DNA of 64,000 nt, taken from positions 1 through 64,000 of IMG/VR virus record IMGVR_UViG_3300017917_002937; one strand, written 5' to 3'. Shown one piece after another: positions 17,690 through 45,700 of the stretch (within the stretch, counting starts at the first letter, position 1; each line of letters begins with the position of its first letter). Under the pieces are notes generated by a model, which was given only the letters and a program-made list of their open reading frames with translations, had not been told where the DNA came from and did no database searches. The stretch comes from a virus. The translations under genes and the position numbers were made by a program.

Positions 17690-18508
17690 ATGAACCCATT
17701 ACGACAATACTTTAGAAGACCTGCATTACATTTAAAATTACCAAGTCAAGGTAAATTTTATCCTCAAAATAGTATTGAAATGCCTGAAAATAGTGAATTA
17801 CCCATATTTCCAATGACAGCGATTGATGAAATAACATCAAAAACTCCTGATGCATTATATAACGGTACTGCTATCGTTGACATTATAAAAAGTTGCGTGC
17901 CTAATATTAAAGACCCATGGAGAATTCCAGCAGTTGATATTGATGCATTATTAATAGGTATTAAGTCAGCAAGCACCGGTAACAATTTAGACATATTAAG
18001 TACATGTACAAATTGCAATAATGAAGAAACATTTGCAATAAACTTATTGATTTTACTTCAAAATATTAAGTTAGGTAATTATCATGAACCATTACAAATT
18101 GGAGATTTAAAAATATTTTTTAAACCATTAGATTATAAAACAGTAAATGAAACAAACCTAATGCAATTTGAAACTCAAGTAGAAATCAACAATTTAGAAA
18201 AAATACAAGATGACAAAGAACGATTAAACAAAACTGGAATTACCATGCGTAAAGTCAATGAAAATCTATTTGCAATTATTGCTAAAGGCATAGATAGAAT
18301 TGAACTACCCAATGAAACAGTAACAGATTATAACTTTATACTTGAATTTATATTGAATACAGATAAAGCAACTTTTGAAGAAATGAGAAATTATGGTGTC
18401 TCATTAAGAGAAACTAGTGAAATAAAACCTGTTAAGTTAAAATGCAATAGTTGTGCAAATGAATATTTACAACGTGTTGCATTAAATGTTACTGATTTTT
18501 TCGAATAA
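17690..18508 (+). CDS. 26: Baseplate hub assembly protein gp26
   Basis: 272 aa, T4 gp26-type baseplate protein. The characteristic N-terminal block is visible: LKLPSQGKFYPQ, then LPIFPMTAIDEITSKTPDALYNG, IKSCVPNIKDPW and DIDALLIGIKSAS (residues ~15-90). Two Cys pairs (CTNCNN and CNSCAN) suggest a zinc site not needed in all homologues. gp26 takes part in assembly of the central hub of the baseplate. AGGAG precedes the ATG and TATAAATA lies further upstream. The gp51-like gene follows at once, as in other T4-like phages. Confidence 0.85.
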   Translation: MNPLRQYFRRPALHLKLPSQGKFYPQNSIEMPENSELPIFPMTAIDEITSKTPDALYNGTAIVDIIKSCVPNIKDPWRIPAVDIDALLIGIKSASTGNNLDILSTCTNCNNEETFAINLLILLQNIKLGNYHEPLQIGDLKIFFKPLDYKTVNETNLMQFETQVEINNLEKIQDDKERLNKTGITMRKVNENLFAIIAKGIDRIELPNETVTDYNFILEFILNTDKATFEEMRNYGVSLRETSEIKPVKLKCNSCANEYLQRVALNVTDFFE

Positions 18509-18534: not shown

Positions 18535-18732
18535 GTGCAGAAGCTACTTGATAGCCTTGAAAAAGAAGCAAATTCAATAAAAGAAAATGCGTTAAAATTA
18601 AGTTGGTATATGAGAGGTAGTGTTTCATATAATGACGTTTTAAATATGTCAACATTTGAAAGAGATGTTATATCCAATATTGCTAACGAAAATTTAGACA
18701 CAACTAAAAAATCAGGACTACCCTTCTTTTGA
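18535..18732 (+). CDS. 51: gp51-like baseplate hub assembly protein, non-ATG start
   Basis: A short helical protein ending ENALKLSWYMRGSVSYNDVLNMS...TTKKSGLPFF, which matches the small gp51-type proteins that follow gp26 in T4-like aquatic phages (T4 gp51 itself is longer). No ATG is available: the frame offers GTG at 18535, CTG at 18514 and ATA at 18505, the last overlapping the gp26 stop. Residues encoded upstream of the GTG (RLLYLQPEEV) read like real protein, so the true start may be one of the earlier codons. The gene ends directly before a double-hairpin terminator. Confidence 0.65.
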   Translation: MQKLLDSLEKEANSIKENALKLSWYMRGSVSYNDVLNMSTFERDVISNIANENLDTTKKSGLPFF

Positions 18733-18782
18733 AGACGAACCACGTTCGTCTAAGACCTCACTAACGTTCGGTCTTATTTTTT
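18733..18782 (+). terminator. Double-hairpin terminator after gp26-gp51
   Basis: A perfect 8-bp hairpin AGACGAAC-CAC-GTTCGTCT (18733-18751) is followed at once by AAGACC...GGTCTT (18752-18775) and a T-rich run (18777-18782). The T tract is on the forward strand, so it ends rightward transcription directly after the gp51 stop. Confidence 0.8.
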
Positions 18783-18802
18783 AATTATTGATACTAAAAA
18801 CT

Positions 18803-19146
18803 AATACTTGCCGCTAGGATCTCCATGGTAGTGCTATTCAGCACTACCAACGGGACTTGCCATGCTTGTCACTCCGTGTTGTCTTTGCCAATACATACAG
18901 CCTTACTGCTTATGTATCCTACCGGTTGCCCTTTAAAGTTTATGGCCTGTAGTGAAGCTTATGTTTGTAAACACATCTTCGGCAACGCACATCCTATAAC
19001 ATCAAGACAAAATAGCTATAGGCTTGTTGAGTGTTCGCTTTGTCGATTGCACTCTCGGTATAATGAGGATAGGTTATCCTCCTACTCCAGATCCGTCGGC
19101 ACAGCACTACCTGTACTTTCTCAAGGAGGGTCTAGGAACCTAGACC
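18803..19146. ncRNA. Candidate structured non-coding RNA, GC-rich and hairpin-dense
   Basis: This fills most of the 424-nt gap (18733-19156) with no convincing gene. GC is 137 of 300 (46%) at 18841-19140, far above its surroundings. Perfect or near-perfect hairpins are TGGTAGTGCT-ATTC-AGCACTACCA (18826-18849), ATACATA...TATGTAT with inner CAG/CTG (18891-18917), GAGGATA-GGT-TATCCTC (19065-19081) and GGTCTAG-GAAC-CTAGACC (19129-19146 overall). Longer-range pairs are GTTGCC/GGCAAC (18925-18930 with 18981-18986) and GAGTG/CACTC (19029-19033 with 19050-19054). I do not recognise tRNA, tmRNA, RNase P or group I intron signatures. The strand is not determined; on the forward strand it starts just after the gp51 terminator. 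A forward open frame exists but runs into the antisense of the next gene. Confidence 0.55.
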
Positions 19147-19156
19147 AAACAAATTT

Positions 19157-19726
19157 TTATAATAAAGGGTTATGTGAAATTCTAGTAATTTGTATTTGTT
19201 GTTCTGACTTGGTGTCAATTATTTTACTATATTTTTTAATTAGTTCTTTGTTTAATTTCCAAAAATGTTCAAATTCTATTATTAACCAATCATTGTGATT
19301 TTTTGATGTATAATATAAAAATTGGTCTGTTATCCAAGTAAGTTTACTTTGGACACACATAAATTTTCCTTTACGATTAAATTTCATAAAAAGTAAATTT
19401 AAATCTTGAGGTTCACTTACAGACATTAGTTGATCTAGCCACGCATCTAAAACTTTACAGTTTCCAGCTAACACTAGATTAAACGGAAAATCAGCATAAA
19501 ATTTACATTCGATATTCATATTACCAAAACTTTGTCCAGGTACAACATCACCCTTAAAGCTACGAATCTGACCTTCATGTAATACTTCTTTTCTTACTTG
19601 ATTTTTACCACCGACATAAGCACCACTTCCTGGAGCACGTATAAAGCTTTCGTCATAAGTATCTGTTAAGAATTTTGCAACTTCTCTCTCAAATCCTGAA
19701 CCTTTTGCTTTTTGTGGACTAGGCAT
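19157..19726 (-). CDS. Hjc-like Holliday-junction resolvase / PD-(D/E)XK nuclease (189 aa)
   Basis: The N-terminal half shows the archaeal-type resolvase pattern: KGSGFEREVAKFL (catalytic Glu), an R-x-PGSGAYVGG loop, GDVVPGQ (Asp) and IECKFY (E-x-K). The C-terminal half is less conserved. It would cut branched DNA made during recombination-dependent replication, a job done in T4 by the unrelated gp49. It follows the gp46/gp47 block on the same strand, which fits. The ATG lies 4 nt after an AATAAATA octamer, without a Shine-Dalgarno, and 7 nt after the stop of a mini-ORF. Confidence 0.7.
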   Translation of the reverse strand: MPSPQKAKGSGFEREVAKFLTDTYDESFIRAPGSGAYVGGKNQVRKEVLHEGQIRSFKGDVVPGQSFGNMNIECKFYADFPFNLVLAGNCKVLDAWLDQLMSVSEPQDLNLLFMKFNRKGKFMCVQSKLTWITDQFLYYTSKNHNDWLIIEFEHFWKLNKELIKKYSKIIDTKSEQQIQITRISHNPLL

Positions 19727-19839: not shown

Positions 19840-21816
19840 TTACTCAAGTTCAGTGCTAGTAGCATAAGTTGAAAAGCCATTTTCTTTTATTACTTTTAAA
19901 ACACTATTTACCCTCATAGCTAGTTCGTCTTTATGACTAATTAACCAAATGGACTTTTGTCTACGGCGTGACATATCTTTTAAGATACTTATAGAATTTT
20001 CCATTCCAATAGCATCCGTGCCGTTATCTAGTAACTCGTCAATAAACAATACATTAATTGGACTATATAAATTTTCCCAAACATCACGAAATGCCCAAGA
20101 CAGCGACAAAATTAATCTATTCATTTCTCCCCTTGAAAGATTATAGAAGTCCATTTCACGACCTAGTTCTGTAATTTCTACTTGTAAATCATTTTTAAAT
20201 ACAACCTGATGTGGTAATCCAATCTTATCTAAGTAATGTGTTAATCGTGAATTCAAATAACTTAAATTTTGGTCAATAATTTTCTTACGTACAAAACTAT
20301 CTTTACTTGTTAATAAATCTAATAAGAACTTTTGATGTTCCATTGTTCTAGTGATTTTATTAATCTTATCAAAATTAACTTCCTGTAATGCTTGACTTTC
20401 CATCTCATTGATTTGTTCTTGATATGGATCAGTCTCATTACTTTTATCTTCAATCTGTTTAATAATTGTTTCAATTTGACTGCTATGTTTAATAGCTTCA
20501 GCCTCAGTTTGATAATATGTGACTGGTTTATCAATCACAGTAACTGGAACTTTTATTAATTCGTCTAATTGAAACTTATAATCATCAAGTAAATTTTTAC
20601 TCTCTACCAATGAATTATATTTACTTTCTAGTACACTAGTGTGCTGTTTATCATGCAATTCATGCCCACAAGTATAACATTTGTGATCTTTTAGTGTGTT
20701 AACTTCAGTTTCTAGTTTTTTGTAATCTTTTTCTTCTTTGGCAATATCTTTTTTAAGACTTGCAACCTTACTATCATATGAGATTTTTAACAAAACTTGT
20801 TGATTATATATGGCTAAATCTTTGTGTGCTTGTAATTCTATTTCAATATCTATTTGACTTAATCTAGTATATTGAATAGCTAGATTTTCTAAATCTTCGT
20901 TATGTTTTGTTTTCCAAAGTTTTTGTCTGCGCTTAGTGCTTTCAATTTGTTCTTTAACACGCTTATTTGCTTCTTCTACGGCTTTAACACGAAATTCTTC
21001 TTGTTGGATATCATCTTTGCTCTGACGTATGAGGTCTTTAATAACATCAGCCTTTTCACTTAGTAAGGTGATACCAAGTAATTGTTCAATAATAGCACGT
21101 TGATCGTTTGCTTTAAGTGCTAAGAAGGGTTCGCTGTAAGTATTAAGGGCGACAATATGCCGAAACATATCACTAGACATATTAACAGTGCGTTCAATGA
21201 AACTCTGTGTTTCCTTGTTCTCGCCCTGTGCATCATCCTGCGTTTTCTGTAATTTATTGTCAACATAAAATTTTAGTATGTTAGGTTTACGACCACGTTC
21301 AATCTTATAGTCTGTACCATTTACGTTAAAATCTAATGTAACTAACATACCTTTACTATTGGTACGATTTACAAGATTATCCTTACGTATATTATTTATT
21401 GGTACACCAAATAATGCATAACATAACCCTTGGATTAAGGTTGTGTTATGTGACAGTATTTCGTTAGTGTAATATCTATGGTCAGGTGAATCAACGGTAA
21501 TATCGTACATGTTTTCTTCTCTAGTCGAAGAAGTAATTGTGTGTACCTTTTCAATTCCTGATGAAGTTAATATATGTGATTTATAAGGAATTAAGTTTTT
21601 TACAAATATTTCTGTAGCATTATCAGTGAAAACAATATGATCGTCAGCACATTCTAGCTGTTTTCCTGTTTCTGTTTCTATTGTCCAAACAGTATAAGGT
21701 ATTGTTTTGTGTATTTTGGAAATTGGCTTCCAACCAGTATCAGTTTCTATTTCTAAATTATTTAAATTTAGACTTTCTATGAATTTTCTTTTTACTGATT
21801 CAGAAAGTTTATGCAT
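19840..21816 (-). CDS. 46: gp46 C-terminal half with N-terminal split-intein fragment (IntC)
   Basis: Residues 1-124 are an intein C-fragment. It contains a block-B-like LECADDHIVF, block F (MYDITVDSPDHRYYTN) and block G ending LSHN(124), with Thr125 as the first extein residue. The extein then resumes as TTLIQGLCYALFG, the second half of the Walker A helix of the Rad50/SbcC-like ATPase gp46. Coiled coil follows, with a zinc hook CYTCG near residue 375, an ABC signature NLSRGEMNRLILSLSW and Walker B INVLFIDELLDNG near 585. It can act only after trans-splicing to the 50-residue extein encoded by the N-half gene at 23109, giving about 584 aa. AAGGAA (21827-21832) precedes its own ATG, which lies inside the end of the endonuclease gene (25-nt overlap). 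Confidence 0.92.
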   Translation of the reverse strand: MHKLSESVKRKFIESLNLNNLEIETDTGWKPISKIHKTIPYTVWTIETETGKQLECADDHIVFTDNATEIFVKNLIPYKSHILTSSGIEKVHTITSSTREENMYDITVDSPDHRYYTNEILSHNTTLIQGLCYALFGVPINNIRKDNLVNRTNSKGMLVTLDFNVNGTDYKIERGRKPNILKFYVDNKLQKTQDDAQGENKETQSFIERTVNMSSDMFRHIVALNTYSEPFLALKANDQRAIIEQLLGITLLSEKADVIKDLIRQSKDDIQQEEFRVKAVEEANKRVKEQIESTKRRQKLWKTKHNEDLENLAIQYTRLSQIDIEIELQAHKDLAIYNQQVLLKISYDSKVASLKKDIAKEEKDYKKLETEVNTLKDHKCYTCGHELHDKQHTSVLESKYNSLVESKNLLDDYKFQLDELIKVPVTVIDKPVTYYQTEAEAIKHSSQIETIIKQIEDKSNETDPYQEQINEMESQALQEVNFDKINKITRTMEHQKFLLDLLTSKDSFVRKKIIDQNLSYLNSRLTHYLDKIGLPHQVVFKNDLQVEITELGREMDFYNLSRGEMNRLILSLSWAFRDVWENLYSPINVLFIDELLDNGTDAIGMENSISILKDMSRRRQKSIWLISHKDELAMRVNSVLKVIKENGFSTYATSTELE

Positions 21817-22880
21817 TTGTTGATTATTCCTTGTTTGTCTTTTTTGTATTCCGACTCCCAGATTATTAATACAGTGTACCCATCATCATTAAGTAACTTT
21901 ATTTTTTGACGGTCATGATCCCATATTTTTTCTGCGGTTGTTTTTTTTATGACATCTGTGGCTTTAAATTTGTTAGGATTGGCATGCCAATAGTCACCAT
22001 AGAACTCTATAATTTTTTTTTGTAGAACATCAATACAATCTATAGAGTATGACATATTGTTTATTCTTAATACAACCTCATTATAACCAAACTTTATATT
22101 TGGGATATTGCATTTTATGGATTCAAACAACTCAAGTGATATTTTTGAAAATCCACCATGTAATCCCGATTTTTTTAAAGAAGACAGCCATTTAATTTGT
22201 CGTTCGCTCCAAATTTGTAATCCTTTTTCTTCTCCATATTTTTCAACACATTTTTTTTGTGAAAATAAAGTTTGAGCTTCTGTAACTTTGTTTGTTGCTT
22301 CTTCTTTTGAATAGCCTCGTAACATCCAATACTCAATAGTACGATGACTATGTGCTCTTATACGGTTAACATTTCTGTTTTTTGATGCTTTCGCTCCCAT
22401 GCTATTATTAAAGTTTTTTTGATTTTGTGCCAAAAATAAGGCGATTTCATCATCGTACCCTTTATTAATCCAATATTCTTTTCTTATAGGTCTTCTAGAA
22501 TTTCTTTCAAACTCAGCCTCGGCGAATGTATATTTTTTTCCTGTTTTAGGATTAATTCTGTCTGTCCAAAAATTAATAGAGTAAGTGCTTTTTCTTACTG
22601 TTTTACTATTAATGTCCTTCATACACATTTTAGCCTTAATTTCTGCTGACAGTTCGTCCCAACCCCTACTAAGCCAATATTTTTTTCCTCCCTTACCTAC
22701 TCCAGGTAAGGTTAGCATATTTTGTCTTACAATGGCTTCACATTTTTTAACACTAGTTATGTCAACATGACATAACAATTTTTCTCTAATTGATGCCATG
22801 AGGTTAGGTTCTATGTTTTTAATAATTTCTATCAATGTTTTATCTATTATTTGGGTCAGTGTAAATTTTGGCTGCTTCAT
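21792..22880 (-). CDS. Vsr-like (EDxHD-type) homing endonuclease between split-intein halves
   Basis: 362 aa. The C-terminal ~130 residues have the Vsr-related nuclease pattern YSIDCIDVLQKKIIEFYGDYWH, then WDHDRQKIKLLNDDGYTVLIIWESEY (in part: DxxRxxxLxxxGYxVLxIWE). Upstream are repeated Trp-containing modules: KKYWLSRGW, KEYWINKGYDDE and IEYWMLRGYSKEEA, then KKCVEKYGEEKGLQIWSERQIKW. This architecture is that of free-standing endonucleases found in fractured phage genes. It is translated in its own frame with GGGAGAA (22885-22891) as ribosome binding site. Its start overlaps the gp46 N-half by 41 nt and its end overlaps the C-half by 25 nt. It presumably cuts gp46 alleles lacking the insertion at the Walker A site. 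Confidence 0.88.
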   Translation of the reverse strand: MKQPKFTLTQIIDKTLIEIIKNIEPNLMASIREKLLCHVDITSVKKCEAIVRQNMLTLPGVGKGGKKYWLSRGWDELSAEIKAKMCMKDINSKTVRKSTYSINFWTDRINPKTGKKYTFAEAEFERNSRRPIRKEYWINKGYDDEIALFLAQNQKNFNNSMGAKASKNRNVNRIRAHSHRTIEYWMLRGYSKEEATNKVTEAQTLFSQKKCVEKYGEEKGLQIWSERQIKWLSSLKKSGLHGGFSKISLELFESIKCNIPNIKFGYNEVVLRINNMSYSIDCIDVLQKKIIEFYGDYWHANPNKFKATDVIKKTTAEKIWDHDRQKIKLLNDDGYTVLIIWESEYKKDKQGIINKCINFLNQ

Positions 22881-23109
22881 ATAATTCTCCCATAGTTATA
22901 GAGCATATCTCACCTGTGAGAGTGTTTCTTACTCTAACTATAGTATTTATCCCAACGCACTTACCAGTACCATTACGTGCACCGTCACCACCTAAGTCTA
23001 AGTTCTCACCTAATATTAGTGTTAACTCTTTTCTATCAAAGTTTACTGCTTGTGTGACTTGTCCAATAGACAAAAAATTACGCAAGGTTATATTTTTTAG
23101 TGTTATCAT
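22840..23109 (-). CDS. 46: gp46 N-terminal half with C-terminal split-intein fragment (IntN)
   Basis: 89 aa. Residues 1-50 are the gp46 N-terminus, ending GGDGARNGTGK(50), the first part of the Walker A loop. Cys51 (codon 22959-22957) starts the intein: CVGINTIVRVRNTLTGE, whose Cys-(V)-x-G-x-T pattern is a normal block A. The frame stops after residue 89, giving an N-fragment of only 39 residues, much shorter than the ~100 of common split inteins. Its ATG overlaps the gp47 stop (ATGA), so it is translationally coupled to gp47 as in other T4-like phages. Alone it has no ATPase core. Confidence 0.92.
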   Translation of the reverse strand: MITLKNITLRNFLSIGQVTQAVNFDRKELTLILGENLDLGGDGARNGTGKCVGINTIVRVRNTLTGEICSITMGELYEAAKIYTDPNNR

Positions 23110-42700: not shown

Positions 42701-45700
42701 GGTTTTAGTGATAAAACTTTCTTAAAGTTTTTTGTAGAAAAAGGTAGCCCTAATAGTACAAATGCTTCTTTACTAATTCCAGATGAAAGTTACAGCTTAT
42801 TATTATACGATAATGTTCCATTTGACAAAATAATTTATAGTGGTATTATTGTTCAAATAGACCAAAGAGGTTTCACTGTATTTGGTAACTCACAAACACA
42901 AGCTTATTTTAACATTTTAAAACCTAAAAATAATGGAGTCTATGATCAATTAACTGTAGAAGATATTACAGTAAGAGTTCCTAGAAACTTTTTTACAACA
43001 ACTGATATTGTACCTTATGGTCAAACATTTTATAGTATTCAAGAATTGTGTATTTTTATAAAATCATATGGTGCATATTTAGAAAGTAAAGGAATGAAAT
43101 TTGATACAATTGAAAATGGATTAGAAATTAATTGGAATCAAATGATATTAGAATTCTTGTATTTTGTACAGAATGGTTGGGAAGTTGGTACACTCATTAC
43201 TTTAAACCCTGCTGCTGTAAATTTACAAATCAATAGAGAAAATGCTATTGTTCAACCTTTAACTTATTATGAATCTAATTTTGTAGTTAATGAAAATTTA
43301 TACCCTATAGCTTTGAAAGATTTAGCAATAACTAGGGAGGAAACATTTTTTAGTGTTCAAGCGTTAAATCAAGGAGATAGTATTGGTTATGGGCAATTTA
43401 ATTTAAATAGTATTGAACATGGGATTGTGTTTGATAACATAACATTATTTAATGATACAATTTATAATGTACCAACTGGTTTACGTCAGATAAGAATTTT
43501 CTGTAGAGGAACTAAAACAGCAGAATGGAATGGAACATTAACTCCTTCAGGATTTATATTAAATCAAGATAACATACAAGAATGGAATTCAACTGTAACT
43601 TATACCAAAGGACAAATTGTAAAATATAAAACAAAATACTATACAGCTATAAAAATTGTACAACCTAAAATAGTTTTTGACGAAACTGATTGGAAACGTA
43701 CAGATTATGATGAAATTCAAAAAGGTTTGTTACCAAATTCAAGCACAAGAAGTGCAGAAAGTTTATTGTATTATGATATCAACAATGCAAATTTAGAAAA
43801 TGAGGCTGATTTATTAGCATTCTCACTTGTTGGATATAGACCAAGAAATTATCTAGCACTTGCTGACTTAACCGATATAACACAAATTAATGTCTACCTT
43901 AATTTAATTAAAAACAAAGGTACAAGAAATGCTACCTATGCATTTAAAGGAGCAAACTTACCACAAGGTGGAATCGATTATGAAATTTATGAAAATTGGG
44001 CAATTAAATCAGGTGAATATGGTGGTGTTTTAAACAATAACTTTATTCAATTAAGATTACAAGAAAATGATTTAAAGGGTAATCCTAGCACGTTAGGATT
44101 AACAAATGGTAATGTTTTTGATGATGTAGAACAAACAATACCATTAAACAAAATTTATAACTATGCAAGACCTATTACTGATCCAAATATTTTAGCAACT
44201 ATTCCGGTTGATACTCCAAATAAAGTTTTTCCTGACGCAGGATATGTAAATTTTAATGATGTTAAAATGAGTGCATTTTATGCTTCATTATTAAATGGCG
44301 CAGTAGATAAAAATGGATTGGTGGTACCATTATCTAGGGTTTATGTTAATGATTATATATGGTTGGCAAAATATTTAAGTACTTGGCAAGTATATACTCC
44401 AGTAAGTAATGGACGTGTAGTTTTTGCGACAAATAATTTAAACGGGTCAGTAACACTAACTTTTAGTGAACCACATAATTTAAATTTAAATCAACTTATA
44501 GCAATAATAAATTTTGATCCAACTATAAATGGATATTTTATTGTCAAAGCAATTGTAAACATTTATAAAATTATAATTAATTTAACATTATCCCCTCAGA
44601 CTACCACAGTGTCAGGGCAAGGAATTGTATTTAAGTTTCAAACCCAGCGTGTTTCTAAGCCTAGCGACATTAATGATTTGCCTTTGTTAAATTATGAGTT
44701 TGTAAAAAATAGAGTTTGGGTAGATCAAGGATCAAGTGGTAATTGGGAAGTTTACCAAAAGAGTGTTAATTACAGTTTTGATACAGAAATTACTAAAACA
44801 AATACTGATACCTTTGGATCAGCAGTAGCATACACTGACAAATTAGGGTATTTAATAGGAGATCAAGATGCAGGTAAAGTTTATCGTTACACATATAATG
44901 ATTTAACTCAATCATATGATCTAAATCAAACATTGACACAAACTGCAAGTTTTGGTGCAAGTATTTCTTATAGTGATAATATTTTTGTTATAAGTCAACC
45001 GACAGGTACCAGCAGAGTTTATGTTTACGAGTTACCTGATTCTATTTTAACTGATGATTTAACACTTTATCAAACTGCAATTTCAGCATTAGGAGGCTCA
45101 AGTAACTGGGGTAGTTCAACTGCTATATCAGGTGATAAAAATTGGATTTATATAAGTGCAGTTGATTTAGCTAGAGTTTATGTATATAGAAAATCACAAG
45201 TTACTGATGAGTATGAATATATTACATATTTTAATGTAGGGGGTCTTACCTCAAGTGATAATTTTGGATATTCACTTAGTACTGATTATTATGGTGACAC
45301 TGTAATTGTAGGCGCTCCAAATGTAGATTATTCAGGTACTATTACAGATTGGGGCAAAACATATGTATTTACCCGAAGTCTTCAAAACATAGAATCACAA
45401 TTTAATAGTGATTCAAGTATTTCCCAAACACTTCAACTTGCTTGGACACCAACTACAATTACTTCAGCATGTAGTGCAACTGCTGTAACAACAAATCGTA
45501 TAACCTGTACAGATACAACAGGCTTTGTAGTTGATATGCCTGTAATATTTTCAGGAACCATATATTCAGGAAGTGAAATATTACCTAATACAATTTATTA
45601 TATTCATAGTATTGTTTCAGGGACACAGTTTACAATTAAAACAACGAGAGCAGGTATAACTTCTTTTGCATTAGGAACGTCGTCAGGAACAGGAATGACA

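Follow-up and report, generated by a model that had tools for sequence, protein, structure and literature searches.

A conserved, pseudoknotted structured RNA on the minus strand beside the baseplate-hub operon of T4-like environmental phages, and its probable standing as a new family

We have analysed a 64,000-nucleotide (nt) stretch of viral DNA, hereafter the window, which forms positions 1 to 64,000 of the IMG/VR record IMGVR_UViG_3300017917_002937, a virus contig of 85,171 base pairs (bp). The subject is the block at 18803-19146, which lies tail-to-tail with a plus-strand baseplate-hub operon and has a minus-strand nuclease gene on its other side. The initial annotation had singled out this block for its raised G+C content (GC), and the rise was reproduced: GC is 45.7% over 18841-19140 versus 32.7% in the window, and just 1.2% of 300-nt segments reach such a value. 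Our comparative analysis of homologues places a structured RNA at this block, in the following setting.

17690 to 18508, plus strand: T4-type baseplate hub protein (PF12322)
18535 to 18732, plus strand: small conserved open reading frame (ORF) of 65 amino acids, which is last in the hub operon and adjoins the RNA in almost every homologue
18733 to 18775, plus strand: hairpins H12 and H11 and a T-run, together an intrinsic terminator that T-run counts assign to the hub operon; H12 is without strand bias
18800 to 19156, minus strand: structured RNA, whose ends were placed by conservation at about 19156 (5′) and 18800 (3′)
19157 to 19726, minus strand: resolvase-like phage nuclease of the PDDEXK_15 family, immediately upstream of the RNA

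The source is a large environmental phage, and a T4-type portal gene (PF07230) and gp46/gp47-like genes near the RNA locus show it to be T4-like.

Homologous loci were first collected via two neighbour proteins, and further homologues came from two pattern scans that used the RNA letters alone. Most loci fetched via the neighbour proteins carry the block at about 67-90% nucleotide identity, and 136 of 161 hold it. IMG/VR yielded 251 near-full-length homologues, of which 168 are distinct and 147 remain after a 97% identity filter. Every checkable element of the first set (n = 130) lies at the same locus. The second, independent pattern scan found the RNA in 80 of 81 new loci, with the same neighbours wherever the flank is long enough; therefore, the fixed locus is not an artefact of the homologue search. 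Altogether the RNA occurs in hundreds of environmental phage contigs, in records of up to 364 kb plus a contig of 525 kb. Ten large records of 121 to 364 kb have one strong copy apiece, and their extra matches are weak (E-values of 0.1-0.6). One such match, at 43199-43333 on the minus strand of a single contig (G018:C1), covers the full length of the RNA model at 14.8 bits (E 0.12), distant from the main copy, and is possibly a decayed paralogue or noise. In another homologue (L263, 1764-2277) the profile match is in two parts separated by about 170 nt, possibly through an insertion within a loop.

Outside these contigs the searches were negative. Isolated phages gave no match with two divergent queries, and the covariance model found nothing convincing in the four closest isolate genomes (PA5oct, Phosso, SCTP-2 and Atu_ph07). 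One pattern scan of bacterial and archaeal genomes returned 38 pattern matches, none of them real by profile. The RNA is also absent, by profile and by covariance model, from the loci of more distant hub-gene relatives. Considering the closest isolates and the distant hub relatives, the family boundary is therefore sharp within the limits of these searches. No description of this RNA was found in the part of the literature that our search covered.

The evidence that carries the assignment is covariation. We used a self-written test similar to R-scape, a G-test with average-product correction, whose null alignments replay the substitutions of a FastTree tree at randomly chosen columns, with significance set at E<0.05; since the implementation is our own, the E-values are approximate. 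The test gave 33 significant column pairs with 97 sequences, 37 with 116, and 25 with 147 in a noisier alignment. Nearly all of them are Watson-Crick or G-U pairs; a few lie next to a true pair, and a single one (18865/18814) is of another kind and is discussed below. In an alignment of the central domain (48 sequences), 23 of 30 pairs show compensatory changes. RNAalifold on the full alignment gave large covariation terms on both strands. On either strand the block folds more stably than its dinucleotide shuffles (z of -3.3 on plus and -3.8 on minus; none of 100 shuffles as stable), and stability does not distinguish the strands, the minus strand being lower in 7 of 16 cases. Fold stability alone is thus modest evidence and gives no choice of strand, and conservation with covariation is decisive.

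The strand was decided by base-pair statistics. Among pairs predicted on both strands in the first set, 253 cells count as G-U with the minus strand taken as the RNA and 58 with the plus strand, and in the larger set the named helices hold 332 G-U versus 88 A-C on the minus strand. Accordingly, the RNA is assigned to the minus strand, and a plus-strand RNA was rejected because G-U far outnumbers A-C on the minus strand. The initial annotation had the block following a terminator. The terminator is real; it is read on the plus strand and belongs to the opposite hub operon, not to the RNA. A T-run of at least four T follows H11 on the plus strand in 97 of 147 homologues, whereas one stands beside H12 on the minus strand in 1 of 115; therefore, H11 and H12 form the terminator of the hub operon. 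H12, at the far end, has no strand bias in its pairs (10 G-U versus 8 A-C). The 3′ end of the RNA would lie before H11 and H12, or the RNA may read into them.

These data show that selection maintains a specific fold, which has a multibranch domain at its centre, nine or more helices, two pseudoknots (PK1 and PK2) and a conserved terminal hairpin with a co-evolving site on each side. The hairpins and longer-range helices that had been proposed from the single sequence, including the perfect 10-bp stem in H10 and the 7-bp stem in H1, are present. The elements, listed from the 5′ end of the RNA and all on the minus strand, are as follows.

19129 to 19146, minus strand: H1, 7-bp hairpin of variable sequence (arms 19129-19135/19140-19146), with covarying pair 19141/19133
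19120 to 19128, minus strand: conserved CUCCUUGAG, in all 97 sequences checked; its predicted partner is the GGAG of 19085-19093
19099 to 19116, minus strand: H2 hairpin, with covarying pair 19114/19101
19085 to 19093, minus strand: conserved GAUCUGGAG, predicted partner of 19120-19128
19064 to 19080, minus strand: H3 hairpin, whose stem covaries
19056 to 19060, minus strand: H4 5′ strand, which closes the central multibranch domain with 18920-18924; covariation and compensatory changes
19029 to 19054, minus strand: H5 stem-loop, with compensatory pairs 19054/19029 and 19052/19031
18989 to 19027, minus strand: H6 stem-loop, with the strongest covariation (e.g. 19016/18999); its loop enters PK1
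19005 to 19010, minus strand: PK1 5′ strand, partner of 18879-18884; pairs 19010/18879 and 19008/18881 significant
18981 to 18986, minus strand: H7 5′ strand (GUUGC), partner of 18925-18930
18943 to 18946, minus strand: PK2 5′ strand, partner of 18887-18890; pair 18946/18887 significant
18925 to 18930, minus strand: H7 3′ strand
18920 to 18924, minus strand: H4 3′ strand
18891 to 18918, minus strand: H9, long hairpin whose sequence varies freely, with at least seven covarying pairs
18887 to 18890, minus strand: PK2 3′ strand
18879 to 18884, minus strand: PK1 3′ strand
18823 to 18853, minus strand: H10, 10-bp conserved hairpin (perfect stem 18826-18835/18840-18849) with a short extension

The predicted pairing of 19120-19128 with 19085-19093 is too invariant for the covariation test. 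The conserved CUCCUUGA of 19120-19128 on the minus strand is similar to the 16S anti-Shine-Dalgarno, which may be a coincidence or may mark a ribosome-related site.

The same alignments speak against a protein and against known RNAs. Protein coding was rejected: the longest stop-free stretch equals that of shuffles (median of 62 codons in both), 207 gaps in the core alignment are single-base, and no codon-level conservation of an ORF was found among the homologues. Neither the window nor eight loci with divergent homologues had an Rfam 15 match at gathering score, and at E<=10 the block gave only noise. The covariance models of GOLLD and ROOL, the large phage RNAs with which comparison had been suggested, matched nothing, whether at gathering score or with the cut-off relaxed to E=10. 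No transfer-messenger RNA (tmRNA) or transfer RNA (tRNA) was matched by ARAGORN or Rfam, and there is no tRNA within the 64-kb window. RNase P, group I/II introns and HEARO had no Rfam match; the sole RNase P line scores 9.5 bits against a gathering score of 84 (E 2.7) and lies outside the core. Covariation beyond phylogeny, together with the absence of a conserved ORF, places the locus among conserved structured RNA families. The initial proposal of a new phage structured RNA that codes for no convincing protein and is not a tRNA, tmRNA, RNase P or group I intron has therefore held up against the covariation, ORF and Rfam comparisons, and the strand is newly assigned.

Two short sites that flank the main hairpin H10 behave differently from the helices.

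18856 to 18866, minus strand: site m1, GCAUGGCAAG in the window, in which 18865 changes jointly with 18814 to the same base
18806 to 18815, minus strand: site m2, AGCGGCAAGU in the window

Columns 18865 and 18814 vary together and carry the same base (GG, TT, CC or AA). On the tree they show 11 and 14 changes, respectively; ten fall on the same branch, and all ten lead to identical bases. Four ordinary helix pairs, taken as controls, never change jointly to identical bases. Ordinary pairing is no explanation of the pattern. The letters around the two columns read XC(AU)GGCAZ and XCGGCAZ and are more alike within than between phages, with a mean shared word of 5.53 versus at most 5.32 in 200 permutations. 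Neither the element nor the 6 kb to each side of it is enriched in complements of m1/m2, and none is evident in the 85-kb record. On the one hand, m1 and m2 may have a common partner outside the region; on the other hand, they may form a symmetric non-canonical pair with each other, within one molecule or between two. A bolder reading, which we consider less likely than not, is that the RNA belongs to a new class of phage RNA machines, whose two short sites astride a rigid hairpin would be kept identical by selection so as to bind one partner or each other in a symmetric RNA oligomer. Recognition through such identical sites is not known to us from GOLLD, ROOL or any other phage RNA that has been catalogued. 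The identical-base coevolution provides a specific, testable handle on the partner of the RNA.

Elsewhere in the window, intein-like halves appear to interrupt the gp46-like recombination gene (19840-23109, minus strand) at its P-loop (GTGK|C... and ...SHN|TT), and a separate endonuclease-like ORF (21792-22880) with a weak MTES_1575 match lies between these halves; the arrangement looks like a gene fractured by a split intein. A single ORF of 6,731 amino acids occupies 36749-56944 on the plus strand, and its first 1,000 residues have no Pfam family match.

We consider that the element, of about 350 nt on the minus strand of large T4-like environmental phages, probably represents a new family of phage RNAs that are free-standing and act in trans. 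The RNA would be transcribed with the nuclease gene or just behind it, and would then be separated from the nuclease messenger RNA (mRNA) or start at its own promoter. During infection it may act in trans as a compact RNA or an RNA-protein particle, in the way that has been proposed for GOLLD and ROOL. Its identical exposed sites m1 and m2 would bind a shared partner or else contact one another symmetrically, perhaps within an oligomer. Several points weigh against a free-standing RNA. No intrinsic terminator on the minus strand was found in the T-run counts among homologues, and upstream promoter motifs were negative, neither the T4 late promoter TATAAATA nor a sigma-70 promoter being enriched. 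In some phages the start of the RNA probably overlaps the end of the nuclease gene, which also fits an mRNA 3′ end. The RNA is also about half the length of ROOL and GOLLD and is not beside tRNAs.

The position of the RNA bears on a cis-acting role in the 3′ untranslated region (UTR) of the nuclease mRNA, where the fold would block 3′ exonucleases or control the translation or decay of the transcript. In almost every phage the RNA follows the nuclease stop codon directly and on the same strand, the stop lying 10 to 149 nt (median 31) before the conserved CUCCUUGA. However, two loci of one sub-lineage (L122 and L400) keep the RNA and lack the PDDEXK nuclease, with a SegE-type GIY-YIG protein (PF19835) in its place. 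The PDDEXK nuclease is thus not invariably with the RNA, although constant company would be expected for an element of its 3′ UTR, and since the RNA is kept with an unrelated nuclease, it is independent of the nuclease. The fold, with two pseudoknots and invariant unpaired segments, is also far more elaborate than known 3′ protective hairpins. Accordingly, we regard the cis-acting role as fairly unlikely. L122 additionally carries an ORF with a NUMOD3 motif.

The behaviour of m1 and m2 would also fit a bivalent antisense or guide RNA, whose two sites, presented astride H10, pair with one target in phage or host RNA or DNA. The ten of ten joint changes to the same base, the longer words shared by own pairs than in 200 permutations and the few complements of the own motif within the RNA are in line with this. 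However, a direct symmetric contact between m1 and m2 predicts the same pattern, and no complementary partner was enriched within 6 kb to each side or evident in the 85-kb record, so that we judge such a guide unlikely. A self-cleaving or self-processing ribozyme that frees itself from the nuclease mRNA would suit the multibranch fold, the two pseudoknots, the invariant unpaired nucleotides and the negative search for a promoter or terminator of its own; considering that no Rfam ribozyme or intron family matches and no known catalytic motif was recognised, it is quite improbable. That the element works as folded single-stranded DNA, e.g. as a site for replication or packaging that the nuclease next to it would recognise, is very improbable: it is always beside a nuclease gene where the flank is readable, and the G-U bias alone cannot separate RNA from single-stranded DNA, but pseudoknots and strong strand asymmetry suit RNA better and the nuclease family is present in relatives that lack the element.

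In summary, a free-standing RNA family remains our preferred reading. To our knowledge, large phage RNAs with an elaborate fold are few, and a firm function has been established for none of them. With its fixed locus, its presence in hundreds of contigs and its defined two-pseudoknot fold, the RNA is a practical target for cryo-electron microscopy and probing. Among known systems, the manA and wcaG motifs are structured RNAs of T4-like cyanophages that were found by comparative genomics and lie mostly in potential 5′ UTRs (PMC2864571). In contrast, the present RNA lies in a convergent intergenic region, where the opposite operon, and not a same-strand gene, comes next downstream. The lytic phage ICP1 makes abundant noncoding transcripts of about 800 and 300 bp by RNA sequencing, its top transcript being noncoding (PMC7567579); these are known from expression, whereas no homologue of the present RNA was found in the phage collection. 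ROOL is a large structured RNA encoded by phages, with multiple pseudoknots and with no known function or protein partner, and GOLLD is a large phage RNA of likewise unknown function whose amount rises during lysis; both form RNA-only cages (PMC12286853). Like ROOL, the present RNA is large, phage-encoded and pseudoknotted, but the solved ROOL example has 659 nt versus about 350 nt here, and ROOL is often near tRNA islands. Like GOLLD, it is a large phage RNA that occurs in metagenomes, whereas GOLLD is often longer than 800 nt, lies near tRNAs and differs in sequence and fold. The best reading by analogy is that the present RNA would be comparable in kind to GOLLD and ROOL and unrelated to them by sequence.
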